Origin: Phycisphaerales bacterium
Lineage (GTDB): Bacteria > Planctomycetota > Phycisphaerae > Phycisphaerales > UBA1924
Direction of reading: 5' to 3'
NCBI GenBank assembly: GCA_035627955.1
Contig: DASPKU010000007.1
Coordinates: forward strand, 1 to 64,000
Length of the DNA stretch: 64,000 bases
The notes beneath the pieces were generated by a model. The model was not told the origin of the DNA, did not search any database, and saw only the letters and a list, made by a program, of their open reading frames with translations. The position numbers and the translations under genes were made by a program. Positions 22,100 through 60,262 of the stretch are shown here, one piece after another. The stretch's first letter is position 1, and every line of letters starts with the position of its first letter.

Positions 22100-23014
22100 T
22101 CAGGGGGCGTCGTCCAGCGGGGGGGGCGGGGGCGGCGCCTGGCCCAGAAGGCGGCGCATGAACAGGGGCCAGAGGCCCTTCCCGGTGCGGGCGTCGTAGT
22201 GCTGGAGCGCGTAGGCGGCAAGGTCGTGGGAGTGGTAGCAGTCGTTCACGATGACCGCGAGTTTCAGGAGCTGCTCGGGCGAGAGGTCACGGAATCGCAT
22301 GAAGTCTTTGATGTATACCGCGTCCGCCCACATGACCTGGTTGATGCGCCTGCCGGGATCGCCGGCCGGGGCGAGCGGTTTGAAGCAGCGGCCCTGCCCC
22401 TCGCCCATGATGTGGATGCAGAAGCCCTGGCGGCGCAGCTCGGCGTCAATGTCCGCGAACAGGGGCTGACTGATGTACATGGGGAGGAACTCGACCTCTG
22501 TCTGCACGACGACAGCGTTCTTGAGCAGCCGTTCGCCGCCCCTGAGGACATCGAGCTCGGCCCCCTGCACATCGATTTTGAGCAGGTCCATGCCAGTGAT
22601 CTCCGGGATGTCATCAAGGCGGCGGGTGTTGACGCTGGACCGCTTGATCGGAGTCGTGATCTCCTCCAGCTGATTGAAGCGGCGGAGCAGCGGAAGGTTG
22701 GGTTCGAGGAGGCTGGAGGTGAAAGGCGCGGTGCACTGCTTGAACTCGGCGCTGTTGCCGTCGCCGATGAAGTAGGGGAGGAACCGCTGGTTCTTGCCGC
22801 AGGTGCGGTTGAGCTTTTCGCACTCCTCGGGGATGGGCTCAAACCCAACAACATGCCCGACGCCCTGCTGCACCAGCGGCTGGTACTCGTTGGTCGCACC
22901 GGCGAGAATCATCGCGCCGACGTCGATGATGTCGATGGATGGCGCGGCAGAGCCGAGGAAGGTGGCCAGGTTGAGGTGGGGCATGGGACCATGATACTGG
23001 CCGGGGTGGGTCAT
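22100..23014 (-). CDS. FkbM-family methyltransferase
   Basis: A 304-residue FkbM-type (Methyltransf_21) O-methyltransferase. The SAM-binding start is IDIIDVGAMILAG near residues 27-39, then VVGFEPIPEECEKL, and the family hallmark LLKIDVQGAELDVLRGGERLL near residues 150-170. These enzymes usually methylate sugars or natural products. The start overlaps the glycosyltransferase stop (TGATG), so the two genes are coupled and probably act on the same glycan or glycosylated product. The Pro-rich C-terminus (APPPPPPLDD) is unusual. Confidence 0.9.
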   Translation of the reverse strand: MTHPGQYHGPMPHLNLATFLGSAAPSIDIIDVGAMILAGATNEYQPLVQQGVGHVVGFEPIPEECEKLNRTCGKNQRFLPYFIGDGNSAEFKQCTAPFTSSLLEPNLPLLRRFNQLEEITTPIKRSSVNTRRLDDIPEITGMDLLKIDVQGAELDVLRGGERLLKNAVVVQTEVEFLPMYISQPLFADIDAELRRQGFCIHIMGEGQGRCFKPLAPAGDPGRRINQVMWADAVYIKDFMRFRDLSPEQLLKLAVIVNDCYHSHDLAAYALQHYDARTGKGLWPLFMRRLLGQAPPPPPPLDDAP

Positions 23015-24255
23015 CAGGCGGAGGCACGCAGGTCGCCGGGGGGTTCGAGGCGGGTCATGCGGAGGGTGGCGGTGCGGGCGGCGGCCTGGCCGTAGAGCTC
23101 CTCGAAGCGGGCGATGAGGCGGTGCTCGTCGAACTGGCGGAGGGCCCAGGTGCGGGCCTTCTGGCCCATGCGGTCGAGGATGCGGGGCTGCTGGAGGAGG
23201 CTGGCGAGCTCACCGCAGAGGCCTTCGGCGGTGGGCTCGACGATGGCCGCGCCGCCGCTGCCCTGGATGTCGCGCCAGATGTCGACGCCTTTGGTGGTGA
23301 CGACGAGCGTGCCGCACGCCATGGACTCGATGAGCACCAGGCCGAGGTTTTCCTGGCTGGTGGGGAGCACGAAGAGGTCGCACGCCTGGTAGAGCGAGGT
23401 TTTCTCGACACCTCCCACGTGGCCGACGAAGTGCGTGCGTTTGGCGATGTTGAGCGACTCGGCTTTGCGGCGGAGGGAGTCGACGTACTCGGACTCACCG
23501 GTGCCGGCGATCGCGAGATTGAAGTCGTGGCCGCTGCGGGCGAGCATGGCCGCGGCTTCGAGGAGGGCTTCGGGGTTTTTCTTGTAGTGCAGGCGGGAGA
23601 GGAAGAGGATGGTGGGCTTGTCTTCGTTGAGGAAGGGGAACCGGGCGTGCGCGGCGTCGGGGCCGGGCAGCTCGCGGTAGAGCTCGAGGTCGATGAGGTA
23701 GGGGATGACGACGGTGCTGCCCATGGGGAGCCAGCGGCGGGCCTGCTCGGCCTCGGCGGTGGCGGTGCAGTGGATGCGCCAGGCCTTCTCGAGGAAGTAG
23801 CGGCCGCCGAGGGAGAGGTAGACGCGCTTCTTGAGGTAGCGCTGGGCCATGGACCAGTCGTCGAGCATGCCGTGGAGGCTGATGATGTAGGGCACGCCCA
23901 TGTCGCGGGCCTGTGCGGCGAGCTGCATGCAGGTGGTGGCCCAGAGGCAGTGCAGGTGCAGGACGTCGGCCTGGCTGAGCTCTTCGCGGACGCGGTCCAT
24001 CGCCTCGGGGGTGAAGAAGTGGTCGGCGATTCCGGGCTTGCCGAGGGAGATGACGCGGGGGAGGCGGTGGTCGTGCGGGGGTTCGCTGGGGCGTGTGTCG
24101 TCGACGAGCCAGGAGGCGGGGGTGTCCGTGGTGTCGTCGGCGAGGATGGTGGAGCAGTGCCCGTGGGCACTGAGAACGCGGGCGATGTCGAGGACGAAGC
24201 GGGGGACGCCGCCGTCGCGGAGGTCGGTGCGGGGGACGTAGTGCAGGATCTTCAC
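23014..24255 (-). CDS. Glycosyltransferase family 4 (GT-B fold)
   Basis: A 413-residue GT4-type retaining glycosyltransferase. It starts with MKILHYVPRTDLRDGGVPRF, the nucleotide-sugar loop GG near residue 15, and carries the C-terminal donor-site sequence FVLPTSQENLGLVLIESMACG with the E-x7-E pattern near residues 300-320. FLSRLHYKKN is the usual start of the second Rossmann domain. Acceptor and donor are unknown. It lies 86 nt beyond the MMPL exporter stop, same strand, and may decorate the cluster product or belong to surface-glycan synthesis together with the FkbM gene. Confidence 0.93.
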   Translation of the reverse strand: MKILHYVPRTDLRDGGVPRFVLDIARVLSAHGHCSTILADDTTDTPASWLVDDTRPSEPPHDHRLPRVISLGKPGIADHFFTPEAMDRVREELSQADVLHLHCLWATTCMQLAAQARDMGVPYIISLHGMLDDWSMAQRYLKKRVYLSLGGRYFLEKAWRIHCTATAEAEQARRWLPMGSTVVIPYLIDLELYRELPGPDAAHARFPFLNEDKPTILFLSRLHYKKNPEALLEAAAMLARSGHDFNLAIAGTGESEYVDSLRRKAESLNIAKRTHFVGHVGGVEKTSLYQACDLFVLPTSQENLGLVLIESMACGTLVVTTKGVDIWRDIQGSGGAAIVEPTAEGLCGELASLLQQPRILDRMGQKARTWALRQFDEHRLIARFEELYGQAAARTATLRMTRLEPPGDLRASA

Positions 24256-24341: not shown

Positions 24342-27008
24342 TCAGGTGTGCTGGTGAGGGGTGCTCACCGGGTGGTCAGCTGGTGCGGCGTGGTTGGGGA
24401 GCGGGTGATCGGGCGAGGCGGGGTGTTTGCTGCGCCGGCCGGCGAGGATGAGGAGCAGCGGCGCGAGGAGGAGGAACGCGCCCGCGAGGCACGCGGCGAC
24501 CCCGATCGCCACCACGCGCCCCAGCGACTGCACGGCGGGGGTGGTGGTGAGGATGAGCGTGCCGAAGCCGATGAACGAGGTGACGGCGGTGTGGGCGATG
24601 GCGTGGAAGCTGGCCTTGAAGCGGGTGACGAGCTGAGCGCGGGTCTCGTTAGCGTGCTCGCTTTTCTGCGCGAGGACGGCGAGGAAGATGCCGTAATCAA
24701 CGCCGATACCGAGCAGCAGCGGCACGGCCATGGCGTTGGCGAGGTTGAGGCGCTCGTCGGTCATGGCCATGACTGCGAGGAGGACGGCGCCGCCGAAGAG
24801 CAGGGGAATAAGGGAGAGCAGGGTGTACTTGAGGGAGCGCAGGCAGAGGAGGAGCAGAGCGACCACGGCGGCGGTGGCGGCGAGCATGAAGCGGGGGAGG
24901 TCGTGACGGACGGCGTGCTCGACGTCGTGGCCGACGACGGCCATGCCGGTGACGACGGCGCCGGGGATGTCGGCGATGGCGTCGCGGAGGGTGGCGGCCG
25001 CGGCGTCGCGGGTGCGGGCGTCGTTGGTGGGGTTGTGGATGGAGACGAGGGTGATGGCGGCGGGTTTTGTGCGCGGGTCGGAGTTGCGGGCGAGGACGAG
25101 GTCGCGGAGGTCGGGGTAGTTGTTGAGGGTGGCGATGGTGGGCGGGCTCTGCGGGGCGAGGAAGCGGCGGAGGAAGGTCTCGAAGTCGGCGAATGCCTCG
25201 GAGGTAAAGCTGGAAGAGGCGACGGCGGCGCGGAACGCGGCGATCGTCTGGTCGATGTCGAAGCTGGTTGAGGTCGCGGCACGCGCAGGGTCCGGGAGGA
25301 GCGATGCAAGCCCGGTGACGGCGGTGATGTGGCCCTGCTCGCGTGTTTCTGCAGGGGCGAGGGCGCGGTGCACGCGGTGGGTGGTGGAGACGAGTGTGTC
25401 GGGCGTGTCGGCCTCGGTGTAGATGATCATCGTGTCGCCGCCGCCGAAGCGGCGGGCGATCTCGTGCTCGGTCTCCAGCGGGCGGTTGGGCTGCGGGTGC
25501 ATGACGTTGAGGTTGGTCTCGAACGTCGGCAGGCCGCGGAGGATGGTGATGGTGAGGGCCGCGAGCATGAGGAGCGCGCAGGCCCAGAGCATGGGGCGGG
25601 CGCGGCGGTCGAGGGCGGTGACGAGGGGGGTGAGGTGGATGCGCGGGCCGGTGGCGCGGGGGCTGGACGTGCGCGAGGTGAGGCGGAGGAGGGCGGGGAG
25701 GATCCAGACGGTGGCGAAGAGGGAGAGAACCAGGCCGATGGAGCCGAGGATGGCGAAGTCGCGGAGGGCCTGGATGCTGGAGAAGGCGATGGCCGCGAAG
25801 CCGACCACGGTGGTGGTGCTGGCGGCGGTAAGGGGCATGGCCAGGTCGCGGACGGAGGCGAGCGCGGCGTCGGCGGGGGACATGCCGAGTTGGCGGCGCT
25901 CTTCGTAGAAGGAGATGAGGTAGACGGAGAGGTCGATGCCGCAGGCGATGAGGGTGGCGGCGACGGCGGCGGTGAGCGGGGTGAGGACGGGGCTGATGAG
26001 GGCGAAGAGGCCGAAGGCCAGGAGCAGGGCCGCGGCGTTGGGGAGGAAGGCGAGGGGGAAGCTGAAGAGGTTGCGGAAACCGATGAGGAAGACAATCTGG
26101 AGGAGGACGACGGACCAGATAACGTTGCTGGTGAGGTCGCGGCGGATGGCCTGCTCGCTGGCGGCGGCGATGGCGTAGGCGCCGGAGAGCTCGACGGTGA
26201 GGCCCTCGTGCGGGGTGGAGGCGAGGAGCTGGTTGGTTTCCGCGACGATGCGCTTGCAGAAGTCGAGGTCGCTGGGGGAGCGGGTGCCGGCGATGCGGAT
26301 CAGGATGCTGCGGGCGTCCTGCGAGATGAACTCGGGCTGGTTGCGCCAGGTGCGGAAGCCGGCGCGGGAGTGGGCGAGGCGGTCGCCGAGGAACTCGCGC
26401 AGGCGGAGGGGGTCCTTGATGAGCTGCTTGGCGAGGGCGCTGGCGGCGGGGCCGGGTGCCGAGAGCATGGCCTCGTTCTGCGCGAGCTGGGCCTGCATGG
26501 CGGGGAGCGTGAGGCGCTCACGGAGGGCGGCGAGCTCGGCGTCGCTGAGGTAGAGCAGGCCGGCGGGCACGGCCTCCTGCTGGATGAACTGCATGAACTG
26601 GGGGCTGGCGGCGTAGGTGACCTTGCCGAAGGTCTGGTCCCTGTTGCTGGTTTGAGTGTGCGCGGCGGTGTGGGCCTGGACTTTGGTCTCGAGCGCGCGG
26701 GCAAAGGTGAGGAGCTGGGCGGCCGCTTCGTCCTCGGTGCCGGGCGGGTGATCGAGTGTGGCGAGGACGAGGAGCTCGTCGGCGGTGGGGAAGTGATCAA
26801 GGACTTTCTGGAGGGCGACGACGGAGGGCTTGTCGGTGCCGAGGAGGTCGGCGGCGGAGCCGCTGGCGCGAACGCGGGTGATGGCCGCGGCGGCGAGGAG
26901 CATGAGGAGAACGGTGATCGCGAGCGTGGCGCGGGGGTGGTGGACGGGGGCGAGGAGCCAGCGCTCCCAGCGTGTGGCGGAGCGTGCGCCGCGCTGGCCG
27001 TGTATCAC
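24342..27008 (-). CDS. MMPL/RND-family exporter
   Basis: An 888-residue RND-superfamily transporter of the MMPL type. An N-terminal helix (ATLAITVLLMLLAAAAI) precedes a long periplasmic loop, then a block of five to six helices, a second loop and a second block, the two-fold repeat of the family. Family residues include GIGVDYGIFLAVLAQ and ACGIDLSVYLISFYEE in the two sterol-sensing-like helices 4, and both blocks keep the 'GFGTLI/GFAAIAF' helix. MMPL proteins move lipidic products outward; xanthomonadin and aryl-polyene clusters carry one. GTG 27008 overlaps the lipoprotein stop (GTGA). It is the last gene of the cluster. Confidence 0.93.
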   Translation of the reverse strand: MIHGQRGARSATRWERWLLAPVHHPRATLAITVLLMLLAAAAITRVRASGSAADLLGTDKPSVVALQKVLDHFPTADELLVLATLDHPPGTEDEAAAQLLTFARALETKVQAHTAAHTQTSNRDQTFGKVTYAASPQFMQFIQQEAVPAGLLYLSDAELAALRERLTLPAMQAQLAQNEAMLSAPGPAASALAKQLIKDPLRLREFLGDRLAHSRAGFRTWRNQPEFISQDARSILIRIAGTRSPSDLDFCKRIVAETNQLLASTPHEGLTVELSGAYAIAAASEQAIRRDLTSNVIWSVVLLQIVFLIGFRNLFSFPLAFLPNAAALLLAFGLFALISPVLTPLTAAVAATLIACGIDLSVYLISFYEERRQLGMSPADAALASVRDLAMPLTAASTTTVVGFAAIAFSSIQALRDFAILGSIGLVLSLFATVWILPALLRLTSRTSSPRATGPRIHLTPLVTALDRRARPMLWACALLMLAALTITILRGLPTFETNLNVMHPQPNRPLETEHEIARRFGGGDTMIIYTEADTPDTLVSTTHRVHRALAPAETREQGHITAVTGLASLLPDPARAATSTSFDIDQTIAAFRAAVASSSFTSEAFADFETFLRRFLAPQSPPTIATLNNYPDLRDLVLARNSDPRTKPAAITLVSIHNPTNDARTRDAAAATLRDAIADIPGAVVTGMAVVGHDVEHAVRHDLPRFMLAATAAVVALLLLCLRSLKYTLLSLIPLLFGGAVLLAVMAMTDERLNLANAMAVPLLLGIGVDYGIFLAVLAQKSEHANETRAQLVTRFKASFHAIAHTAVTSFIGFGTLILTTTPAVQSLGRVVAIGVAACLAGAFLLLAPLLLILAGRRSKHPASPDHPLPNHAAPADHPVSTPHQHT

Positions 27009-27760
27009 TGCTTCACCGCCCGGCGCGGGGGGGTGAAGGCCGCGGGTTGGATGGGGCCGTTGAGCTCGACGTCCTGGAGGCGGACCTCAGCGGAGCCGTG
27101 CTCGCCGACGGCGCGGATGCGGAGGGGGAAGGGTGTCGCGTTGGGGCCGAGCTCGCGGTAGGTGTCGAGATGGAGGGCCTGGCGCTCGCGGTTGTGCTCG
27201 TCGCGGATGGAGTACTTGATGACGGTGAGGGTGGCGCGGTCGATGGTGGCGACGATAGTGCCGGAGTCGATGGGGCGGGTGGCAGTGAGCTCGGGCGTGG
27301 TGGTGAGGACCAGGCGCGGGTCGCGGAAGAAGTCGCCGGTGAGCAGGGAGATGGCCTGGGCGATCTGCTCGGGGCGGGCGCGCTGAAGGCCGTCGGCGGG
27401 CATGCGCTGCGCGGCCTGCTCGGAGGTCATGAGCCAGACGCCGTCCTCGCGGACGGTGGCGTCGAACACGGCCTGGCCGAGCTTCCAGGTGCGGAGGCGC
27501 AGGCGCGGCTGGTTGTCCTTGAGCTCGAAGACGAGGGCGCCGTCGAAGTTGACGGTCTCGCCCCGGGGGTCAGTAAGGGTGAGTGCGCACGCGGCCTGGA
27601 TGCTGCGGATGGACTCGGCGCGGGCGGCCAGGGTCTCGACGGCGGCCTGCTCGCTGCGCCAGTCGTAGGGGCGGACGTAGGGTTTCGAGCACGCGGTGAG
27701 GGCGGCGAGCGCGATGGCCGCGAGCGTGGTGAGGGTGTGGCGCATAAGTGAGTGGGTCAC
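27005..27760 (-). CDS. Outer-membrane-type lipoprotein, LolB/LolA-fold-like
   Basis: About 250 residues. The N-terminus is a lipoprotein signal (LTTLAAIALAALTAC with the lipobox LTAC), then a beta-rich domain without further cysteines: FDGALVFELKDNQPRLRLRTW and VWLMTSEQAAQRM resemble the half-barrel of LolA/LolB-type proteins. A LolB-like lipoprotein next to an MMPL exporter and a LolA-like gene (35263) fits passage of a lipidic product to the outer membrane. GTG 27760 overlaps the AMP-ligase stop; ATG 27745 is an alternative start that also leaves a full signal peptide. Confidence 0.8.
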   Translation of the reverse strand: MTHSLMRHTLTTLAAIALAALTACSKPYVRPYDWRSEQAAVETLAARAESIRSIQAACALTLTDPRGETVNFDGALVFELKDNQPRLRLRTWKLGQAVFDATVREDGVWLMTSEQAAQRMPADGLQRARPEQIAQAISLLTGDFFRDPRLVLTTTPELTATRPIDSGTIVATIDRATLTVIKYSIRDEHNRERQALHLDTYRELGPNATPFPLRIRAVGEHGSAEVRLQDVELNGPIQPAAFTPPRRAVKQ

Positions 27761-29292
27761 GCCTCGGACTCCAGTTGGGCGCGGAGCACCTTGCCCGCCG
27801 GGGTGCGCGGCAGGGCTTCGCGCGTTTGGAAGAGGCGCGGGACCTTGTGGCCGGGCAGGCGCTCGCGGGCGAAGCGGCGGAGGTCGGCCTCGTCAAGGTT
27901 GCCGTTGACGGGGACGACGACGGCCTTCAGGCGCGAGACGGTGGGCGTGACGGGCACGCCGACGACGGCGCACTCTCGCACGCCGGGGTGGGCGCTGAGC
28001 ACGGCTTCGACCTCGGCGGGGTTGACCTTCATGCCGCCGATGTCGATGAGCTGCTTGAGGCGCCCGGTGATGGTGAGGTTGTTGTGCTCGTCGAGGCGGC
28101 CGAGGTCGCCGGTGAGGAAGTGGCCGTCGATAAAGGGGGGCTCTTCGCCGACGTAGGTGTGCATCATGGAGGGGGCTTTGATCGCCACGATGCCTTCCTG
28201 ACCTGACGCAACCGCGGAAGACTCCACCGAGATGAGGACATCTCGGTGGCACGTGTTGATTGCATCGGGGTCGAGGATGCGGATGCTCACGCCGTGCATG
28301 GGCTGGCCAACGCTGAGGGGGTCGGGGGCGGGGTGGTCGGGGTGGTTGAAGGTGACGGAGCCGAGTTCAGAAGCGCCGTAGAGCTGGCCGACGCGCCGGC
28401 CGAAGCGATGGGCGAAGGCCTCGGCGACGGCGGGTGGGAGCATGCCGCCGGCGGAATAGGCGAGGCGCAGCGCCGTTTCGGGCCGACCCTCAGTCTTGGC
28501 GAGCACCTCGAACATGAAGGGAACGCCCGGGAAAACGGTGCTGCCCTGCGGGTTGTCGGCGGCGAACTCGCGGAGGGCGACGGGGAGGTCCAGGCCGTCG
28601 CAGAGGTGGACGCACGCGCCGGCCCAGAGGGGCGCGAGGAAGCCGTTCTCGATGCCGTAGGCGTGGCAGATCGGCGCGGCGGCAAAGACACGGTCGTTGG
28701 GCGTGAGGCCGGTGGCGTCGGCGACGTTGCGGGCGACGGCGTCGATCGCTGAGGCGGGGCGGTGGACGATCTTGGGCAGGCCCGTGGTCCCGGAGCTTTG
28801 GAGCATGAGGCCGGCGAGTGCGCCCGCGTTCGCGCGAATGGGTGCTGGGGTGGTGGTCGAGAGGAAGGTGTAGAGGTCGAGCTCGTTGCACCTGCTGCTG
28901 CCCGTCGTAGGCGCATGGCCCGAGCACGGGGCCGGGCACCCGTTGAGGATGAGCTTTGCGTTGGTGCCGGCGGCGGCGGCGGGGACCTCTTTCGCAACCG
29001 ACGGGTGCATCGGGAAGGCGACGCACCCCGCGGCCCAGATGCCCAGGCAGGCGGTGAAGTACTCGACGCGGTTGCCGCAGATGAGGATGACGACGTCGCC
29101 CGGCTTGGTGCGCTGGCGGAGCGCGTGGGCCACACCGCCGACCTGCTGCGCGAGCTGCGCGTAGTTGGTGTTCGCGCTCGAGTTCAGGCCGACCTCGCGC
29201 GCGGCGATTGCGTCGGGGCGCTCGAGCGCGTGGCGGGCGAGGCGGGCGAAGAGCTCCATCGGGTGCGCGCCATCAGGACGCGGGGCGCTCAC
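27757..29292 (-). CDS. AMP-dependent acyl/aryl ligase
   Basis: A 511-residue ANL-superfamily adenylating enzyme. The P-loop is MLQSSGTTGLPKIV near residue 160, followed by GQLYGASE, FLTGDLGRLDE, GRLKQLIDIGGMKV and the terminal lysine segment TPAGKVLR. It should activate a carboxylic acid as acyl-AMP and load it on CoA or ACP. With a chorismatase beside it, a hydroxybenzoate starter is the natural candidate substrate. GTG 29292 overlaps the preceding stop by 4 nt (GTGA); ATG 29259 is an alternative that still covers the domain. Confidence 0.92.
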   Translation of the reverse strand: MSAPRPDGAHPMELFARLARHALERPDAIAAREVGLNSSANTNYAQLAQQVGGVAHALRQRTKPGDVVILICGNRVEYFTACLGIWAAGCVAFPMHPSVAKEVPAAAAGTNAKLILNGCPAPCSGHAPTTGSSRCNELDLYTFLSTTTPAPIRANAGALAGLMLQSSGTTGLPKIVHRPASAIDAVARNVADATGLTPNDRVFAAAPICHAYGIENGFLAPLWAGACVHLCDGLDLPVALREFAADNPQGSTVFPGVPFMFEVLAKTEGRPETALRLAYSAGGMLPPAVAEAFAHRFGRRVGQLYGASELGSVTFNHPDHPAPDPLSVGQPMHGVSIRILDPDAINTCHRDVLISVESSAVASGQEGIVAIKAPSMMHTYVGEEPPFIDGHFLTGDLGRLDEHNNLTITGRLKQLIDIGGMKVNPAEVEAVLSAHPGVRECAVVGVPVTPTVSRLKAVVVPVNGNLDEADLRRFARERLPGHKVPRLFQTREALPRTPAGKVLRAQLESEA

Positions 29293-30656
29293 ACCGCCCC
29301 CGCGGTTTCGCGGTGCGGCTTGACCTCTGCACGCGCGTGCATGCCCGGCAGGGGCCCGGGCTCGGGCGCATCGAAGATCGACCACGTGGGGCGCTTGGGC
29401 CCCAGGGCGACGTGCTTCTGGGCCCACACGCAAGCGCGGAAGTACCACATGCGCCAGCGGATGCTCCAGGGCGGGGCGGGCGGGAAGACGTTGCCCGCGA
29501 GCAGGCTGATCACGGCGCGGTGCACCTGGAGCGGCCCCTGCCCCTCCATGAACAGCTCGCGGAAGTTCTGGTGGTGGTACATGCGGATCATGTTGAAGAA
29601 GTACTTGCTGCTGTTGTGCACGTAGCCGCAGTAGCTCTTCTTGAGCTGGTCCACGTTCTTCGCGCCGCGGACCAGCTTGGCGACGGTCTGGCCGACGCGG
29701 ACGCCGCCCATCATGCCCATGCAGGCGCCGGTGGAGAAGATGGGGTCGACGAACACGGCCGCGTCGCCGACGAGGAAGTAGCCGTTGCCCGCGAAGGGCT
29801 CGCAGCGGTAGCTGAAGTCGGCGAGGATGTGGTTGTCTTTGGGCAGTTCGGCGTTCTTGAGCTGGTTGGCGATGTGGGGCACGCGGGCGACGGCCCAAAG
29901 AAGGGCCTGATCGTGCTTGACGGGCAGCTTCTTGGCCTCATCGGCGTCCATCACCATGCCGATGCTGACGACCTCCGAGTTGATCGGGATCATCCAGAAC
30001 CAGCCCTCTTTGTACATCACGATGGTCGGGTAGCCGCCCACCGGCATGGGCTTGCGGTCCACGTTTTTGAAGTGGCCGAAGAAGGCGATCTTGCGGTGGC
30101 CCTCGATGACCTTGCGGGTCTTGAGCAGCTTGCCCAGGAACGAGCCCTGGCCGCTGGCGTCGATGAGCCACCTGCCCTTGACGCGGCCGGCGCTGGTTTC
30201 TACCTCGACCTCGCCGTCGCGCATGACGGGGACGTCCTTGACCGTGACGTTCTCGCGGACGACCGCGCCCTCATCCTGCGCGGCCCGCAGCAGCATGTTG
30301 TCGAACACGGCGCGCTCGATGTTGAAGGCGTAGGTGCACCCCACGCCGGGGAGGCCGCCGTCGAAGCGGAAGTGCATGGACTTCTCGGGCTCCTCGGCCC
30401 ACGCGAACTCGGCCCCCCACTTTTCCACCTGCGGAAGCTTGCTGAGCCGCTCCTCGAGGCCGAGCTCCTTGAGCAGGGCCATCATGCGGGGGAGGAAGCT
30501 CTCGCCGATGTGGAAGCGCGGGTGCTGGGCGCGGTCGAGCACGAGGACGGTGAGGCCCTCGCGGCGCATCTGGAGCGCGGCGGTGGCGCCCGCGGGGCCG
30601 CCGCCGATGACGATGGCGTCGTAGATGGTGTCGGATGTGGAATGGGTGGTGGTCAT
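29289..30656 (-). CDS. FAD-dependent oxidoreductase, flavin-dependent halogenase-like
   Basis: A 455-residue flavoprotein. The dinucleotide fold is AIVIGGGPAGATAAL near residues 14-28 and the second FAD contact is FLVGDAAVFVDPIFSTG near 290. Two features are those of flavin-dependent halogenases: RFHIGESFLPRM near residue 48 and GWFWMIP (the WxWxIP motif) near residue 215. Geranylgeranyl-reductase-type enzymes share the fold, so oxidation rather than halogenation remains possible. Xanthomonadins are brominated aryl polyenes, which makes a halogenase in this cluster plausible. The partner flavin reductase is not seen. The stop overlaps the AMP-ligase start. Confidence 0.88.
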   Translation of the reverse strand: MTTTHSTSDTIYDAIVIGGGPAGATAALQMRREGLTVLVLDRAQHPRFHIGESFLPRMMALLKELGLEERLSKLPQVEKWGAEFAWAEEPEKSMHFRFDGGLPGVGCTYAFNIERAVFDNMLLRAAQDEGAVVRENVTVKDVPVMRDGEVEVETSAGRVKGRWLIDASGQGSFLGKLLKTRKVIEGHRKIAFFGHFKNVDRKPMPVGGYPTIVMYKEGWFWMIPINSEVVSIGMVMDADEAKKLPVKHDQALLWAVARVPHIANQLKNAELPKDNHILADFSYRCEPFAGNGYFLVGDAAVFVDPIFSTGACMGMMGGVRVGQTVAKLVRGAKNVDQLKKSYCGYVHNSSKYFFNMIRMYHHQNFRELFMEGQGPLQVHRAVISLLAGNVFPPAPPWSIRWRMWYFRACVWAQKHVALGPKRPTWSIFDAPEPGPLPGMHARAEVKPHRETAGAV

Positions 30657-30745
30657 GGGACTGCTCGCGTTGCGATGACGGGTGTGGGCGTCTGTGGTGT
30701 TGGCGGGATTGAAGCTGCGCGGTGAGCGGCCGCTTGGGATGGCCA

Positions 30746-30771
30746 GCCGCTCCCTTACGGTCGCGGTTCCT
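30746..30771 (-). repeat. CCGCTCCCTTACGGTCGCGG repeat (copy 1)
   Basis: Found 9 nt beyond the stop of the chorismatase gene. A close copy sits at 40702-40726, again at the end of a minus-strand gene, so it may help terminate transcripts. Confidence 0.7.
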
Positions 30772-30779
30772 ACTGGTTT

Positions 30780-31718
30780 CTACTGGACGGCGGCGACTCC
30801 CTCGACCTCCACCAGCAGCTCGGAGCGGCAGAGGTCGGCGCGGAGGACCTCGACCTTTGCCACGTGGCGGAACTCGCGGGCGCAGGCGTCGCGCATCAGG
30901 GCCTCGTCAACGGCGCGGGGGCAGTAGACGCGGACCTCGCGGAGGCGGTCGAGGGCCGCGGTTTCGGGGCAGCCGCAGCCGCGGGCGATGACGGCGCGGA
31001 GGTTGATGAGGGTTTCGTGGACCTGGGACTCGAGGTCGCCGATGTGGACGGACTCTTCGCCGCGGATGCTGGCGGTGCCGGCGACGAGGAGCACGCGCTC
31101 GCTGCGCAGCTCGGCGATCGTCGCGCGGGCGAAGCACGGGGGCGTGGGGCCGAAGCGGCGGGAGTAGAGGTACGCGGGCACCTGGCGCGGGTTCTCCACC
31201 GGCGTGCCGGGCTTGGTGGCGGCGAGGCAGTGGATCACGAGGTCGTCGCCGCTGTGGCCGATGCCGCTGGCGCAGGCGACGCAGCGGCGCACCTGGTCCA
31301 CGCCGCCGAACCACTCCTGCATCGCGGAGAAGCGGCCGGCGTTGAACGCCATGTAGCGGTCAAGGCCCGGCGCGACGCGGTCGTGCAGGCCGGGGATGTG
31401 GTTCCAGAAGCGCACCGGGTGGTGGGCGTGGCAGACTTTCAGTCGGGTGAACAGGGCGCGGTAGGCGGCGCTCACGTGCGCGGCCACCCCAGGCTCTTGC
31501 AGTTCGCGCAGGTTCGGCACGCGCACACTGACGAGCGCGATGCCATCGCGCTCGATGGCGACAGGCGCGCGGTCGTGCAGGTCGGCGTGCGGCAGCTCGC
31601 CGACGAGACGGGTCACCCACGCGGGCGGGGCGACGACGTCGGCTGCAAGCGCTTCATGAGGCACGGGTTGTGCGAGGGCCGCTGTCACTGGCCGCAAGCA
31701 TACCGCGGTGAGGGGCAC
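30780..31718 (-). CDS. Chorismatase family protein (FkbO/Hyg5/XanB2-like)
   Basis: A 312-residue protein with all the landmarks of the chorismatase family: VRFWNHIPGLHD with LDRYMAFNAGRFSAMQEW (residues ~100-140), KPGTPVENPRQVPAYLYSRR with FGPTPPCFARA (~190-220), LVAGTASIRGEESVHIGD (~232-250) and the close ADLCRSELLVEVEG. These enzymes hydrolyse chorismate to pyruvate plus a cyclohexadiene diol, 3-hydroxybenzoate or, in XanB2, 3- and 4-hydroxybenzoate. Which product forms here depends on active-site residues I cannot assign with certainty. The gene lies 15 nt after the KS fusion and would supply the aromatic starter of the cluster. Start GTG 31718. Confidence 0.92.
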   Translation of the reverse strand: MPLTAVCLRPVTAALAQPVPHEALAADVVAPPAWVTRLVGELPHADLHDRAPVAIERDGIALVSVRVPNLRELQEPGVAAHVSAAYRALFTRLKVCHAHHPVRFWNHIPGLHDRVAPGLDRYMAFNAGRFSAMQEWFGGVDQVRRCVACASGIGHSGDDLVIHCLAATKPGTPVENPRQVPAYLYSRRFGPTPPCFARATIAELRSERVLLVAGTASIRGEESVHIGDLESQVHETLINLRAVIARGCGCPETAALDRLREVRVYCPRAVDEALMRDACAREFRHVAKVEVLRADLCRSELLVEVEGVAAVQ

Positions 31719-31733
31719 TTCACACGCAAACGC

Positions 31734-34169
31734 CTAGCGATCCCCAATCGCGACCCGAACCGCGGCCGCGGCGCCGGCGAAGTCGGTGGCGAGCAGCCCG
31801 AAGCTGCGGACGGGCGCCGGGCCGGTCACTCCCCCGAACAGCCGGGGCGGGGCGTGCCTGGTGAGCAGCACACCCGCCAACGCGGCCAGCGGGCCGGCGC
31901 TGAGGAGCTCGGGCAGGTAGCCCTCGATGCTGCCCACGTGAGCGAAGCGGCGGCGGCCGCTGAGGCACGGGCGTGTGTGTGATTCTGGTGAAGGTGGTGG
32001 GCGGCGGGCGGCGCGCTCGATGGCCGCGTGCTCGACGCGGTCGAGCCAGGTGCCGCAGCTGGAGGTGATGAGGGCTTCGATCGAGCCCAGTGAGGACACC
32101 AGGCGCTCGCAGGCGGTGGTCATGGCCGCGACGGTGCGGGCGCAGGCGGCTCCGCCGGCGCGGGCATCGATCGTGGCGCGGGGCGTGACATTGCGGGCGA
32201 GGGCGGAGGGCTCGCTCTCGAGGATGATGGCGGCGGCGCCGCTGGCGGTGAAGAAGCCCCGCTCGGCGCGGGCGCTGCCGACGAAGCCGGGCCCGGCCTT
32301 GTAGCCCCACTGCCGCCAGATCTCGTTGGCGAGGGTGTGGTGCTCCTCGCCCGCGCTGACGATGGCGCGCTCCCACTCGCCGGTGGCGATGCGCACCGCG
32401 GCGAGCCAGAGGGCCTCGAGGCCGCTGGTGCGCGTGCCGATCACGGTCTGGCAGCCGCCCTTGACACCGAAGACCATGGAGAGCTGCGCGGCCGCGGCGT
32501 TGGGCACGCCCTCGGCGAAGAGCATGGGGTTGGCGGCGGCGATGCCTTCATTGACGATCTGGCGGTAGTAGCTCTCGCTGAAGCTGGTGGAGCCGAGCAT
32601 GGAGCCGAGGATGGCGCTGGCGGTCTCGCCGAACGCGGGCGTGTCGGTGATGGACGCGTCGCGGAAGGCCTCGGCGGTGGCGGCGAGGGTGATCTTCTCG
32701 TACTCGCTCATGCGGCGGACGCGCCGGGCGTTCAGGAGGTGGGCGAGGGCTTCGTCGGTGAGGTGGCCGGGATCGGCGGTGAGGGGTATCTGGGTCTCGT
32801 GGGTACCCCGCCGCTCCGCGGCGGCCTCTTCGTTGAGCGCGAGGCGGGCGGAAAGCGCATCGTTCCCGATGACACCGGGAGCGACGACGCCGACGCCGGT
32901 GATGAGCACTGGGCGGAGGTAGGGTTGCTGTGTGCGCGGATCGCTGGAAGAGCCGCCGCGGAGCGGCGGGGTACCCAAAGGCGGGGGACCCAGAGACGCG
33001 ATCATGCAGGTGTTCGCGCCGCCGAAGCCCAGCGACATGTTCATCGTCGCGGCGATGGCCGCCTCCCGCGCGGCTCCGCACTCAACGCGCACGGGGAACT
33101 CGAGGGCATCGGGCGTGACGGCCGCGGTGGGCGGGATGCGCTGCTCGCGCATGGCGGTGATGGAGAGGATGAGCTCGGTCGCGCCCGCGGCCCCGAGCGT
33201 GTGGCCCACGTGGCTCTTGAACGCGACGACGCCGGTAGTGCTGAGGTGGTCGCCGAGGACCCTCTGCATCGCGGCGAACTCGGCCGCGTCGTTGTTGGGG
33301 GTAGCGGTGGCGTGGGCGGAGCAGAGGCCGATGGCGCGGGCGTCGAGGTTGTTCGACACGCGGGCCATGGTGAGCGCGGCATTGGCGGCGCGGGCGGCGC
33401 CCTCGCCCTCGGGGTGCGGCTGAGTGAGGTGATGGGCGTCGCTGCTCTCGCCATAGCCCAGGAGCTCCGCGAGCGGCTCGGCGTGACGGGCGTGCGCGTC
33501 GTCGGCGCGCTCAAGCACGACGATGGAGTAGCCCTCGGCGAGCTTCATGCCGTCGCGCCCCTTGCAGAAGGGGCGGAGGTCGCCGCTGGCCACGAGGCGC
33601 AGGCTGTTGAAGCCGGCGTACACGTACTCGCTCACCGGGTCGTAGCCGCCGGCGATGACGACGTCGAGCAGGCCGGCGCGGAGCAGGGTCATGCCCATCG
33701 CGATGCTCGCAAGGCCCGAGGAGCATGCGGAGCAGGTGGTGAGCGCGGGGCCGCTGATCGGCAGACCCTCAAGCACGTCGGCGAGGATGCTGCCGCCCAG
33801 GAAGTGCCGCAGCGGGCGGTGGTCGCCGCTCCGGAGGTAGGCGCCCCCCTGGCGGATGCCGTGGAGCGTGGTGCCGAGGATGACGCCGGTGCGCGCCGGG
33901 GTGAGGCTGGCGGGGCTGATGCGCGAATGGCGCAGGGCGTCGTCGATGGCCCAGCGCAGGTAGCGCACCTCGCGGACGGCGCCTGGCATGAAGTCTGCCG
34001 GCAGGTCCACGGCCTGGCCGCCGGTCTGGCCAGCGGGGATCGGCTGCTCGAGCGCGGGCATCGAGTTGAAGGCGCGGCGTTTCTCCAGCACGCCCGACCA
34101 TGTCTCGGCGCAGGTGCGGCCCAGGCAGGTGACGAGACCCGCGCCCGTGATGACGATCCGCTTGCTCAC
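31734..34169 (-). CDS. Fused ketosynthase / chain-length-factor-like protein
   Basis: An 811-residue protein with two ketoacyl-synthase domains. Domain 1 (residues ~1-390) is a complete KS: nucleophile Cys149 in TTCSACSSG, His in CSAHATATPNND and the KSHVGHTLGAAG histidine. Domain 2 (~410-811) keeps the fold (ITGVGVVAPGVIGND) but has Thr581 where Cys should be (VIGTRTSGLEAL), no HGT histidine and HVGSIEGYL in place of the GH motif, so it cannot condense and resembles a chain-length factor. KS and CLF are separate genes in most aryl-polyene and type II systems. The joint at ~398-408 is encoded by a family E repeat in frame, and a second copy sits at ~447-456. GTG 34169 overlaps the acyltransferase stop. 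Confidence 0.92.
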   Translation of the reverse strand: MSKRIVITGAGLVTCLGRTCAETWSGVLEKRRAFNSMPALEQPIPAGQTGGQAVDLPADFMPGAVREVRYLRWAIDDALRHSRISPASLTPARTGVILGTTLHGIRQGGAYLRSGDHRPLRHFLGGSILADVLEGLPISGPALTTCSACSSGLASIAMGMTLLRAGLLDVVIAGGYDPVSEYVYAGFNSLRLVASGDLRPFCKGRDGMKLAEGYSIVVLERADDAHARHAEPLAELLGYGESSDAHHLTQPHPEGEGAARAANAALTMARVSNNLDARAIGLCSAHATATPNNDAAEFAAMQRVLGDHLSTTGVVAFKSHVGHTLGAAGATELILSITAMREQRIPPTAAVTPDALEFPVRVECGAAREAAIAATMNMSLGFGGANTCMIASLGPPPLGTPPLRGGSSSDPRTQQPYLRPVLITGVGVVAPGVIGNDALSARLALNEEAAAERRGTHETQIPLTADPGHLTDEALAHLLNARRVRRMSEYEKITLAATAEAFRDASITDTPAFGETASAILGSMLGSTSFSESYYRQIVNEGIAAANPMLFAEGVPNAAAAQLSMVFGVKGGCQTVIGTRTSGLEALWLAAVRIATGEWERAIVSAGEEHHTLANEIWRQWGYKAGPGFVGSARAERGFFTASGAAAIILESEPSALARNVTPRATIDARAGGAACARTVAAMTTACERLVSSLGSIEALITSSCGTWLDRVEHAAIERAARRPPPSPESHTRPCLSGRRRFAHVGSIEGYLPELLSAGPLAALAGVLLTRHAPPRLFGGVTGPAPVRSFGLLATDFAGAAAAVRVAIGDR
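32801..32831 (+). repeat. KpnI-palindrome REP-like repeat (family E, copy 2, in coding frame)
   Basis: GGGTACCCCGCCGCTCCGCG followed by GCGGCCTCTTC, inside domain 2 of the KS fusion, where the minus strand reads EEAAAERRGTH. It is inverted relative to copy 3, 115 nt away. Confidence 0.85.
32947..32976 (-). repeat. KpnI-palindrome REP-like repeat (family E, copy 3, at KS fusion joint)
   Basis: GAAGAGCCGCCGCGGAGCGG followed by CGGGGTACCC. On the coding strand it reads GTPPLRGGSS and forms the linker between the two KS domains. Confidence 0.85.
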
Positions 34170-35266
34170 GCACGCTCCTGCGTTTGCCCGGTGCGGGCGG
34201 CGGCCTGGTCCTCCACGAACGCGGGGCTGAGGAGCAGCCACTGGTCGGGGTGCTTCTCGACATAACGCGCAATGAGGTTGGTCAGTTCGACGAGCGCCGG
34301 GTGCGGCGGGGCGCCGGGCCCGGCCTCGCGCAGGCCGCCCTCTGCGATGATGGGGTCCTCGATGATGATGCGGACCTTGCGGCGGCCAACGCGGAGCGCG
34401 AAGACAGGAATGATCGGCGAGCCCGCGGCCATCGCGAGCTTGACGGGGCCGGTGGGGACCTCAAGCGTGCCGCCGAGGAAGGGGAGGCGCACGCCGCGCT
34501 GCCCGGGCATGACGCGGTCGGCCTGGATGAGGACGACGTCGTTGGCCTGGAGGCGGTTGCGCAGGTGGAACCAAATCCCCATGCCTTCGTCCACGGGCGT
34601 TTCGTTCACGCCCAGGCGGAGGTGGAGCTCCTGGCGGAGGCGCTCGTAGGCGCCGATGGGCTCGCGCTTGAAGACGACGTTGATGTGGGGCTCGTACTCC
34701 TTGAGGGCCGCGGCGGCGACCTCGTAGGAGCCCATGTGGGCGACGGCGATCACGGCGCCGCGCCCGGCGGCGCGGGCGGCGAGCAGCTTCTCGTGGCCGA
34801 TGATCGACTCGACCTCGACGAGCATCTCCTTCTGCGTGCGGCGGGAGTTGCGGCCGACCTCCGCGAAGAACTCGTAGAAGTTGGCGAGCACGGCCTTGCC
34901 GAGGCGCACGCGCTCGGGTCGCGAGGAGGATTCGCCGAGGATGCGGCGGGCATTAGCGGTGGTGCCGCGCCGGATGGAGATGGAGGCGAGCCAGGTGCCG
35001 TGCACGAAAATGGGCTTGACGAGGTCGACGAACCACGGGGCCCGGGCGGCGAAGTGGGCGAGGAGGCGGATCCAGAAGGCCGCGGCGGACTCGCGGAGGC
35101 GGAGGAGGGGCCCTGGGTGGCCCGCCGCTCCGCGGCGGGGCGTTGCGTCATCGCGAGTGCGCGGCGACTCCTGGGTGCTCCGCTCCTTCGATACGGGCAT
35201 GTGCTGGCGCGGAGCCTCCCGCGCAAGCGGGGCTGGATCATCCGCAATGCCGCCGGCGACCGTCAC
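34166..35266 (-). CDS. LpxL/HtrB-like lysophospholipid acyltransferase
   Basis: A 366-residue acyltransferase of the LpxL/HtrB type. The catalytic HX4E is H177-MGSY-E in VIAVAHMGSYEVA, followed by VFKREPIGAYERLR, LIQADRVMPGQRGVRLPFLGG and the hydrophobic VPTGPVKLAMAAGSPIIPVFALR. The family moves acyl chains from ACP to a lipid; the aryl-polyene and xanthomonadin clusters contain such enzymes to attach the polyene to a lipid or glycerol. The first ~55 residues are unconserved, and residues ~43-50 (TPRRGAAGHPGP) come from a diverged family E repeat. GTG 35266 overlaps the LolA stop (GTGA). Confidence 0.88.
   Translation of the reverse strand: MTVAGGIADDPAPLAREAPRQHMPVSKERSTQESPRTRDDATPRRGAAGHPGPLLRLRESAAAFWIRLLAHFAARAPWFVDLVKPIFVHGTWLASISIRRGTTANARRILGESSSRPERVRLGKAVLANFYEFFAEVGRNSRRTQKEMLVEVESIIGHEKLLAARAAGRGAVIAVAHMGSYEVAAAALKEYEPHINVVFKREPIGAYERLRQELHLRLGVNETPVDEGMGIWFHLRNRLQANDVVLIQADRVMPGQRGVRLPFLGGTLEVPTGPVKLAMAAGSPIIPVFALRVGRRKVRIIIEDPIIAEGGLREAGPGAPPHPALVELTNLIARYVEKHPDQWLLLSPAFVEDQAAARTGQTQERA
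35115..35141 (+). repeat. KpnI-palindrome REP-like repeat (family E, diverged copy 7, in coding frame)
   Basis: GGGTGGCCCGCCGCTCCGCG followed by GCGGGGC. The KpnI site is lost. It lies within the N-terminal coding part of the acyltransferase and encodes RRGAAGHP. Confidence 0.65.
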
Positions 35267-36078
35267 TTCTTCGGCTCCTTCTCGCGCTCCTGCGGCGGCT
35301 GCGTGGAAGGATCGGCGGGTTTGGGCGCTTCACCCTGGAGCGGGCGGGAGATGGTCGTTCGCTCAGGCGTCTTGAGCGTGACGTCCTCGTCTTTGAGGCC
35401 GGTGTTGGTCTTGACGTTGCTGAAACGCATGACGGTGACCTCGCCGTCGGCGTCGGTGATCTCGACCAGGCGCCCGATGCCGGTAGTGCCGTCGATGATC
35501 ACGCGGACCTGGGCCACGTGCTCCTTCAGCGTGTCCTTGATGGGCGTGAGCGCGAGGCCGAGCTCGCCGTCCTTTGCGTTCGCGTCGATGTCCTTCGCGG
35601 GAACTTCGGCGATGGTGAAGTGCTCGCGGACGGTCTTGTTGCGGGGCAGGGGCGAGGCCGCGAGTTCGGCCATGCCGCCGGCGACGGGGTAGACCTCGAC
35701 GGTCTTCTGCTCGGGGTAGTAGATCTTGAGCTCGCTGGCGTCGATGGTCATCGCGGTCGGACGCGGTTTCAACGTGTCCCAGCGGGTGGTGGAGCCCTTG
35801 ACCTTGACGGTGCCGCTGGAGACGAGCGGCTTTTTCAGCAGCGGCGTGCGCTTCTCCTGCTCGAAGTCGGCGGTGAGGTCCTCGATCTTGGTGACCGTGG
35901 CGTCGAGCTCTTCGAGCTTCTTGTCAAAGGAGCTAACGGGTGCCGTGCCGGGCTGAACCGGGTTGGTCCCCTGGGTCGGCCGGGTCGTAGTGGTCGGCTG
36001 CGGCTGCGACGGGGCCTGAGCGAGCGCGTGCGCGCCGAGGGCGACTGCGAGAACAGCTGCAGGCAAACGGCGGCTCAT
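35263..36078 (-). CDS. LolA-family outer membrane lipoprotein carrier-like protein
   Basis: A 271-residue periplasmic protein. Signal peptide MSRRLPAAVLAVALGAHALAQ; a Pro/Thr-rich linker; then a LolA domain from residue ~50: DLTADFEQEKRTPLLKKPLVSSGTV, IYYPEQKTVEVYPV and VRVIIDGTTGIGRLVEI. LolA proteins shuttle lipidated cargo across the periplasm. In polyene-type clusters LolA-like genes accompany MMPL exporters and are thought to carry the product to the outer membrane. ATG 36078 overlaps the dehydratase stop (ATGA). The C-terminus is a charged Pro/Glu/Lys tail. Confidence 0.87.
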   Translation of the reverse strand: MSRRLPAAVLAVALGAHALAQAPSQPQPTTTTRPTQGTNPVQPGTAPVSSFDKKLEELDATVTKIEDLTADFEQEKRTPLLKKPLVSSGTVKVKGSTTRWDTLKPRPTAMTIDASELKIYYPEQKTVEVYPVAGGMAELAASPLPRNKTVREHFTIAEVPAKDIDANAKDGELGLALTPIKDTLKEHVAQVRVIIDGTTGIGRLVEITDADGEVTVMRFSNVKTNTGLKDEDVTLKTPERTTISRPLQGEAPKPADPSTQPPQEREKEPKK

Positions 36079-36503
36079 GACGCCACCCCCGCGAGGGCGA
36101 GCGTGCCGCGGGCGATGCGGCTGTCGCCGACGTGCGCCGTTACGTCAAACTGGCGCAGCGGGCCCATGGTGCGGGTGAGCGCACTACGGAGCACGATCTC
36201 GGCGGGCGGGCGGGCGGTGCCGTCGTAGCGCATGTCCACGTGAACGAGGCGGCCGGCGGTCACGCCCGTGCCGTGCAGGCCGACGAGGCCGCTCAGCTGG
36301 GCGAGGGCCTCGCTGATGAGCACGCCGGGAACGATGGGATCATCGGGAAAGTGACCTGCGAAGAAGGGCTCGTCGCCGCGGAGCTGCCAGAGGGCTTCGC
36401 CACGCTCACCGGCGGAGAGGCTCACCACCCGCGTGAGGAAGCGGAAGGGCGGCCGGTGGGGCAGGCGTTCGAGCACGTCGTCCATGTCAGCCTGCCTCAT
36501 CAT
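36075..36503 (-). CDS. FabZ-like 3-hydroxyacyl-ACP dehydratase
   Basis: A 142-residue single hotdog-fold dehydratase. Catalytic His16 is in RLPHRPPFRFL and Glu65 in GHFPDDPIVPGVLISEALAQ, the FabZ arrangement. It should remove water from 3-hydroxyacyl-ACP to give the trans-2-enoyl chain; repeated without enoyl reduction this yields a conjugated polyene. Three bases separate it from the ACP stop. No ketoreductase is encoded in the cluster, so that step must be supplied elsewhere. Confidence 0.92.
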   Translation of the reverse strand: MMRQADMDDVLERLPHRPPFRFLTRVVSLSAGERGEALWQLRGDEPFFAGHFPDDPIVPGVLISEALAQLSGLVGLHGTGVTAGRLVHVDMRYDGTARPPAEIVLRSALTRTMGPLRQFDVTAHVGDSRIARGTLALAGVAS

Positions 36504-36506
36504 CCT

Positions 36507-36764
36507 TCACGAAGCCTTCGCGGCCTGCACGAACCCCGCGAGCGTCTGCACGTCCTTGAACGCCTCGCGACCGATCTGGCCGTCGGCGATCTTGATGCCG
36601 AACTCCTTCTCGATGCTGGTGACCAGCAACAGCACGTCGAGCGAGTCGAGGTCGAAGTCGCCGCCCACCAGGGGGGTGTCGGGCTGGATATCAACCCCGT
36701 CGCCGAGCTTGAGGTCCCGGCGCATGATCGTCTTGATTCGCTCCACAATTGCTGCGTCAGCCAT
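36507..36764 (-). CDS. Acyl carrier protein
   Basis: An 85-residue ACP with the phosphopantetheine serine Ser41 in FDLDSLDVLLL. Acidic helix 2 and the IEKEFGIKI segment are typical. It starts at ATG 36764; an extra 15 codons upstream lack coding character. It is the first gene of the ten-gene cluster and would carry the growing chain for the KS fusion, dehydratase and acyltransferase. Confidence 0.94.
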   Translation of the reverse strand: MADAAIVERIKTIMRRDLKLGDGVDIQPDTPLVGGDFDLDSLDVLLLVTSIEKEFGIKIADGQIGREAFKDVQTLAGFVQAAKAS

Positions 36765-44834: not shown

Positions 44835-44840
44835 TTCAGA

Positions 44841-44932
44841 TCGCAAAGGGGCAAACGGCAAGGGCAAATAGGAACGTGAGGTCGGAAGTTCTAATTTGCC
44901 CTTTGCCATTTGCTCTTTGCCCTTTGGCTCGG
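44841..44932. repeat. 8-mer inverted-repeat hairpin (GGGCAAA family)
   Basis: Left arm 44841-44870 (GCAAAGGGGCAAACGGCAAG...) and right arm 44894-44928 (TTTGCCCTTTGCCATTTGCT...) separated by 23 nt. It occupies the whole gap between the SecA-like gene and the PqqD-M50-HlyD gene. Confidence 0.85.
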
Positions 44933-44933
44933 A

Positions 44934-47102: not shown

Positions 47103-47110
47103 GCAACCTC

Positions 47111-47232
47111 AAGTGGCAAAGTGGCCAAGTGGCAGAGTGGCAAAGTGCGCGGACACGTCGGCAGACCCGCAACGCGGCTGAACGAGGCTCTTCACTTTGC
47201 CACTTCGCCACTTTGCCACTCTGCCACTTCCT
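47111..47232. repeat. 8-mer inverted-repeat hairpin (GTGGCAAA family, copy 2)
   Basis: Left arm 47111-47148 and right arm 47191-47232 with a 42-nt spacer, same units as 2023-2117. It fills the gap between the two HlyD-type genes. Confidence 0.85.
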
Positions 47233-47236
47233 TCCA

Positions 47237-60181: not shown

Positions 60182-60262
60182 CAAAGCGGAAAGCGGAAAC
60201 CGGAAGGCGGAACGTTTATCCGCCCTCCGATTTCCGCTTTCCGGTTTCCGACTTCCGCTTTC
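60182..60262. repeat. 8-mer inverted-repeat hairpin (GCGGAAA family)
   Basis: Left arm 60182-60212 (CAAAGCGGAAAGCGGAAACC...) and right arm 60220-60262 (CCGCCCTCCGATTTCCGCTT...) with a 7-nt loop, filling the gap between ManA and the dehydratase. It ends on the dehydratase stop. Confidence 0.85.

Follow-up and report, generated by a model that had tools for sequence, protein, structure and literature searches.

Gene content of the operon

A 64,000-nucleotide (nt) stretch of DNA from a Phycisphaerales bacterium (contig DASPKU010000007.1, positions 1 to 64,000; hereafter the window) carries a densely packed operon of ten genes, all on the minus strand, at 24342-36764. The host genome comprises 4.26 Mb in 23 contigs and is 95.7% complete. 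A model that saw only the letters and their open reading frames (ORFs) had named ten components on one strand at these positions (the sequence-only reading), and this was borne out by the ORFs, by Pfam, which assigned a family to nine of the ten genes (none for the LolB-like gene at 27005-27760), and by a third-position GC of 0.85-0.96 for nine of the ten genes, the AMP-ligase ORF being outside that list. The genes had been described as joined mostly by 4-nt overlaps, which holds for five of the nine junctions (FabZ/LolA, LolA/LpxL, LpxL/ketosynthase-chain length factor [KS-CLF], AMP ligase/LolB-like, and LolB-like/MMPL); the remaining four are gaps of 3, 15, 123, and 29 nt, the last with the AMP-ligase start at ATG 29259.

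From its high-coordinate end, the operon encodes an acyl carrier protein (ACP; 36507-36764) of 85 amino acids (aa) with a DSL phosphopantetheine site (PF00550, PP-binding, 3e-9), a FabZ-like dehydratase (36075-36503; PF07977, FabA-like, 1e-16; FabZ NCBIfam model 1e-22, below cut-off), a LolA-like periplasmic carrier (35263-36078; PF03548 1e-10; TIGR00547 9e-18 and the flexirubin LolA2 model NF053544 6e-11, both below cut-off), and an LpxL-like membrane acyltransferase (34166-35266; PF03279, Lip_A_acyltrans, 2e-20). There follow a single-chain KS-CLF of 811 aa (31734-34169; ketoacyl-synt 4e-44, in two stretches), a chorismatase of the FkbO/Hyg5 superfamily (30780-31718; PF21168, the N-terminal domain, 8e-15; TIGR04444 9e-47, below cut-off; Hyg5, PDB 5ag3, 1e-33), and a flavin-dependent halogenase-like protein (29289-30656; Trp_halogenase 2e-28) whose best PDB matches are solved halogenases (1e-52). 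The last three genes encode an AMP-forming acyl ligase (27757-29259, with ATG 29259 as the proposed start; PF00501 4e-46 and PF13193 3e-17, from a scan of the longer frame), a LolB-like lipoprotein (27005-27760), and an MMPL-family resistance-nodulation-division (RND) exporter (24342-27008; PF03176 7e-38; HAE3/HpnN subfamily matches below cut-off).

The catalytic signatures of these proteins were found intact across the relatives of the operon. The DSL motif was kept in all 27 family ACPs, and the His and Glu of FabZ in 29 of 29. In the halogenase, the Lys and the W.W pair were invariant (23/23 each), and the full WxWxIP motif was present in 14 of the 23, the operon's own protein included; we take these halogenase residues and the FabZ His and Glu to be catalytic. 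Chorismatase residues Gly214, Cys297, and Glu304 were kept in 26 of 26 family members and align with those of Hyg5, whereas in FkbO both the Gly and the Cys are replaced by Ala. As described in PMC7170507, a CH-II chorismatase is marked by three named residues and an active-site Glu; two of the three and the Glu were matched by alignment and spacing, and the third, Gly-164, was not placed. Because the Gly, Cys, and Glu signature residues match Hyg5, the product is expected to be a hydroxybenzoate, the CH-II and CH-III (XanB2) types not being separable here. Judged by sequence, the chorismatase and the AMP ligase thus form a hydroxybenzoate starter module.

For the LolB-like protein, a lipobox-type Cys24 was present in 7 of 7 aligned rows, and its AlphaFold model (mean pLDDT 83.9) matched LolA/LolB folds in a structure search, including Porphyromonas gingivalis LolB (9tpm; TMq 0.59) and Vibrio cholerae LolB (TMt 0.67); the lowest E-values belonged to LolA-type entries. 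Because of the conserved Cys and the fold match, the LolB-like label stands, as a fold assignment. The LolA, acyltransferase, and MMPL-type exporter genes for the predicted outer-membrane delivery are all present in the operon.

The single-chain ketosynthase-chain length factor and its spread

What the sequence-only reading had listed as "KS/CLF" is one 811-aa ORF, a fusion overlooked there, with the KS at about residues 1-395 and a full-length CLF at about residues 420-811. The two are one polypeptide in 34 distinct loci, defined by a common KS and CLF frame longer than 600 aa; the set excludes L080, L167, L174, and L175, whose frames are truncated or fall short of 600 aa, and also L086, which has a CLF end. 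The KS catalytic residues C149, H286, K318, and H323 were kept in all 34 loci, and the Cys site of the CLF was never Cys (Arg in 29, Val in three, Ser in one, and Leu in one). AlphaFold modeled the protein as one confident unit (pLDDT 85.0, pTM 0.91) and gave low confidence to the linker at 396-415. Among the 50 PDB matches listed by Foldseek, the sole full-length one was 6riw, the PfaC KS-CLF of a polyunsaturated fatty acid (PUFA) synthase (TMq 0.74, 15% identity); the remaining listed matches were KS chains covering half of the protein. PfaC, which likewise holds KS and CLF in one polypeptide, belongs to a megasynthase. Membership of the operon in the PUFA synthases was rejected, as the PfaA model scored 73 bits against a cut-off of 1010 and the operon ACP is a discrete one-domain gene; in the model, the likeness to PUFA synthase is one of architecture only. 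In the open-access literature searched, we found no description of a fused KS-CLF in an aryl-polyene (APE) cluster.

The operon as a whole is conserved. Ten complete loci, that of the window and nine others from planctomycetes, hold every component other than a ketoreductase (KR), and the gene order is identical in all ten; because nine other complete loci keep this order, chance is excluded as the origin of the arrangement. Across the 34 loci, many of whose stretches end at contig ends, which affects the counts, we found LpxL in 34, FabZ in 29, ACP in 27, chorismatase in 26, halogenase and AMP ligase in 23 each, LolA in 22, LolB-like in 14, MMPL in 13, and KR in none. The ACP and FabZ were fused in a single ORF in 10 of the 34.

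When a profile built from 11 fused KS-CLFs was searched against 397 genomes of the host's class, 98 matched at E <= 1e-80. Thirty-three of these scored above 400 bits, mostly with the two halves in a shared frame, although contig ends cut or split some of them; the remaining 65 reached at most 293 bits, essentially along a single KS. The 33 carriers, one of which (G479) was not among the fetched loci, span five families (f1, f3, f4, f105, and f111) of this one planctomycete class. Of 392 genomes drawn from across the phylum, ten matched the KS-CLF query at 1e-60, and two of them, the window genome and G356, belong to the operon family. The chorismatase family was matched in 48 of the 392, and among 19 chorismatase genomes with surroundings fetched (besides G356 and the window genome), a comparable cluster was found in G092 only. 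With three cluster chorismatases as queries, named genomes yielded 24 loci, most of them under Planctomycetota, Acidobacteria, and Proteobacteria titles, and a plasmid search with the chorismatase gave nine records, all from Actinomycete, Caballeronia, or Parabacteroides, at 30-38% identity.

A second operon subtype was seen in L090, L093, and L168-L173, whose fetched stretches have ABC-2 transport genes but no MMPL and usually also genes for a UbiE-type methyltransferase, a class III aminotransferase, a PlsC-like protein, and DUF2141; these labels come from similarity clusters, Pfam having been run on L170, L083, and the ligases only. The UbiE-type methyltransferase is fused to the AMP ligase in L090, L093, and L168, and ABC-2 transport genes also border some MMPL-bearing loci. 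In G474, an extra, separate ACP-KS-CLF set lies directly after the fused operon (L161, 15351-17823).

By sequence, the operon KS is nearest to FabF-type family models. In a midpoint-rooted KS tree of 33 rows, the fused KS form one clade (support 100/100) that joins the KS of other planctomycete loci (G133, G214, G118, and G191; 98/99) and stands apart from FabF/FabB, from the KS of L014-L017, and from Escherichia coli ApeO with Aquabacterium. Kinship of the operon KS with FabF was therefore rejected. Two of the joining genomes, the planctomycetes G118 and G191, hold a second fused KS-CLF lineage (L020, 6201-8111; L021, 1580-4186), with no other operon component in the fetched stretch; because these fused proteins nest with unfused relatives, the fusion arose twice or was split.

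Predicted pathway and known relatives

We consider it fairly likely that the operon encodes a type II polyketide synthase (PKS) making an exported, probably halogenated, aryl-polyene lipid. The chorismatase would convert chorismate to a hydroxybenzoate, most likely 3-hydroxybenzoate, which the AMP ligase would activate and load onto the ACP, and the single-chain KS-CLF would extend this starter with malonyl-ACP. A KR from outside the operon, most likely the housekeeping FabG, would reduce each beta-keto group and the operon's FabZ would carry out the dehydration; as the operon has no enoyl reductase, double bonds would build up along the chain. The halogenase would chlorinate or brominate the phenol ring, and at the inner membrane the LpxL-like enzyme would transfer the polyene acyl group onto an acceptor lipid. 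The MMPL exporter, LolA, and the LolB-like lipoprotein would then bring the product to the outer membrane, where it may serve in photo- and oxidative protection, much like the sunscreen pigments known from other bacteria.

The sequence-only reading had taken these planctomycete genes for a set of the xanthomonadin/aryl-polyene type. That view is supported, as are the hydroxybenzoate starter, the halogenase, and the module for export to the outer membrane: the arcuflavin and xanthomonadin clusters have the same parts (PMC3949708 and PMC3691225). The arcuflavin cluster of Azoarcus sp. BH72 and the xanthomonadin cluster share with the operon a XanB2-type chorismatase, AMP ligase, ACP, and dehydratase, and further LolA, an acyltransferase, an exporter, and a halogenase; they differ in that both list a KR, and arcuflavin also dialkylresorcinol (DAR) genes, neither of which was found in the operon with its fused KS-CLF (PMC3949708). 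The xanthomonadin-like cluster of Lysobacter enzymogenes (PMC3691225) is also a type II PKS with a chorismatase-like ORF5 and outer-membrane carriers; unlike the planctomycete operon, it encodes its CLF as a separate protein of half size (ORF16), which contains an essential Gln and has been compared to the N-terminal half of a CLF. Its KR (ORF13) is essential too, and it has no halogenase. The E. coli CFT073 APE cluster, annotated as KS, KR, dehydratase (DH), DUF3261, MMPL, LolA, acyltransferase (AT), CLF, ACPs, and ligase, shares MMPL, LolA, AT, ligase, ACP, KS, CLF, and DH with the operon, and the Cys site of its CLF is also Arg; it differs in its separate 240-aa CLF, its dedicated KR, and its two KS, and no halogenase is annotated in the stretch.

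As a biosynthetic family of bacteria, aryl polyenes rank among the most prominent (PMC9582728). Their occurrence in planctomycetes is not new, because arylpolyene clusters have been listed there by antiSMASH, including one in Phycisphaera mikurensis (PMC8882080; also PMC11588811 and PMC5383146).

Three neighboring genes had been proposed to take part, the next two as glycosylating and methylating enzymes and a ketoacyl-ACP synthase (KAS) at 17925 as a helper, and all three were rejected as not conserved with the fused operon. The glycosyltransferase (GT; 23014-24255) and the FkbM gene (22100-23014) were without a homologue at E <= 1e-6 in the DNA fetched for the 33 other fused loci; against rejecting the GT, homologues of it occur in three planctomycete clusters with an unfused or sister KS (G133, G214, and G092). 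The KAS, a long-branched KS on the FabF side of the tree, matched only KS-CLF proteins and one other KS in the other fused loci. Elsewhere in the host genome, contig C2 holds two neighboring KS genes (L112, 12573-16044; L113, 9578-10510) with a short-chain dehydrogenase/reductase (SDR) about 14 kb off, possibly a second type II fatty acid synthase/PKS locus. In the window, an apparent secretion or export locus of unusual make-up lies at 42813-49273, where a SecA-like protein is encoded next to two proteins of HlyD type, one of them bearing PqqD and M50 domains; outside the operon, 60261-60797 encodes a FabA-like hotdog protein with a weak ApeI-like match.

The missing ketoreductase and alternative products

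Several observations weigh against an aryl polyene as the product, and most of them concern the KR. That no KR or thioesterase was visible had been noticed from the letters, and Pfam named neither among the ten genes. We built a KR profile from the SDRs of the host genome and searched the 34 loci and four further stretches (671,595 bases). No KR was detected in any of the 34 fused loci or in the four further stretches even at E <= 10, and the positive controls were found, among them the E. coli APE KR (4e-57) and the KRs of the sister planctomycete clusters G133 and G214. SDRs were also found in L085, L089, L091, L095, L096, and L097, those of L085 being doubtful. The absence of a KR is a fixed feature of the fused family, though not exclusive to it: L094, from planctomycete G092 with an unfused KS and CLF (20 kb), and L078, from Acidobacteriota (13 kb), likewise had none, as did L074, L087, and L092, which have few or no other parts. 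In the characterized systems, a KR mutant of the L. enzymogenes cluster was pigment-deficient, the KR being essential (PMC3691225), and Acinetobacter baumannii FabG failed to replace ApeQ in vitro (PMC8041823). The remaining difficulties lie elsewhere: in G356 and G740 an operon-type halogenase stands away from the KS-CLF locus (L183 and L184), where 20 kb show no further gene of the operon, some relatives are without certain parts near the KS-CLF, and the best KS tree does not group the fused KS with E. coli ApeO and the KS of the Aquabacterium chorismatase clusters, although an approximately unbiased (AU) test did not reject that grouping (p 0.101).

A KR encoded in trans was sought by its lid, since ApeQ has, close to its active site, a loop that is shorter by two to three residues (PMC8041823). 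In our alignment, the lid stretch runs to 23-25 letters in the KRs of G214 and of six proteobacterial clusters, to 26 in G133, and to 27 in L085; the rule is imperfect, as the cluster KRs of G133 and L085 have no short lid and that of E. coli ApeQ is shorter by just one letter. None of the 30 SDRs examined among 58 matches in 16 carrier genomes had a short ApeQ-type lid, all having at least 26 letters (those examined were the matches for which a locus was given, and need not be the best-scoring ones), which adds to the points above, and a trans-encoded ApeQ-like KR was rejected on this ground. In G600, G606, and G707, one SDR each passed 1e-25 and adjoins a KS gene. The sequence-only reading had suggested a search of the genome for a FabG homologue, and one is present at 212755-213468 of contig C15, 50% identical to E. 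coli FabG. Because known APE systems need a dedicated KR, that suggestion understates the anomaly; with no KR in the loci and no short lid in the SDRs examined, either FabG serves, or an unrecognised KR does, or none acts. As a dedicated KR, a tested feature of the family, was not found, we regard the operon as working like an aryl-polyene cluster yet being a variant and not a plain member.

These results bear most directly on a KR-free type II PKS, in which the KS-CLF would build onto hydroxybenzoate a short aryl beta-keto chain, left unreduced or processed once, that becomes a halogenated phenolic polyketide lipid and no polyene, with FabZ acting as a cyclase or an isomerase-like hotdog enzyme. 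The KR missing from 34 of 34 loci, the want of a short lid in the SDRs examined, the dedicated KR required in two known systems, and weak FabZ and KS matches to cispentacin AmcE/AmcF, below cut-off, all speak for it. The catalytic residues of FabZ, invariant in 29 of 29, and the ACP-FabZ ORF in 10 of 34 loci are hard to explain without hydroxyacyl substrates, and the remaining gene set fits polyene clusters; we therefore consider this alternative unlikely. It is equally doubtful that the Phycisphaerae family of KR-free operons with a single-chain KS-CLF makes a new class of outer-membrane halogenated phenolic polyketide lipids in place of a xanthomonadin-type polyene.

The halogenase could also be a monooxygenase or other oxidoreductase, giving a hydroxylated, unhalogenated aryl polyene, since its superfamily holds the non-halogenating QhpG and geranylgeranyl reductases and the Pro of WxWxIP is lost in 9 of the 23 relatives; with solved halogenases as the best PDB matches, the Lys and W.W invariant, and the full motif in the operon member, we judge this improbable. 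Less probable still is a pathway to a flexirubin/dialkylresorcinol-type or ladderane-type lipid. The flexirubin LolA2 model does match the LolA protein, below cut-off, but no DarA/DarB-type family was found among the Pfam and listed NCBIfam matches of the ten operon genes, which include a chorismatase instead. The ladderane variant draws on adjacent KS pairs in the less GC-rich planctomycete loci L014-L018, three of which have a FabZ-like gene (the ladderane likeness of these loci is a guess), and the operon KS is separated from the KS of L014-L017 by supported branches (98/99).

An exported aryl-polyene lipid is thus the reading that we retain, and the missing KR leaves two possibilities: either the housekeeping FabG supplies fatty acid and polyene synthesis alike, a role in which it failed in Acinetobacter, or the product is no reduced polyene. 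The fused KS-CLF is a single-chain form of a usually two-subunit enzyme and may be of use for structural work and engineering. Studied aryl-polyene clusters come mostly from Proteobacteria and Bacteroidota; here, a conserved and ordered operon is found in five families of one planctomycete class.

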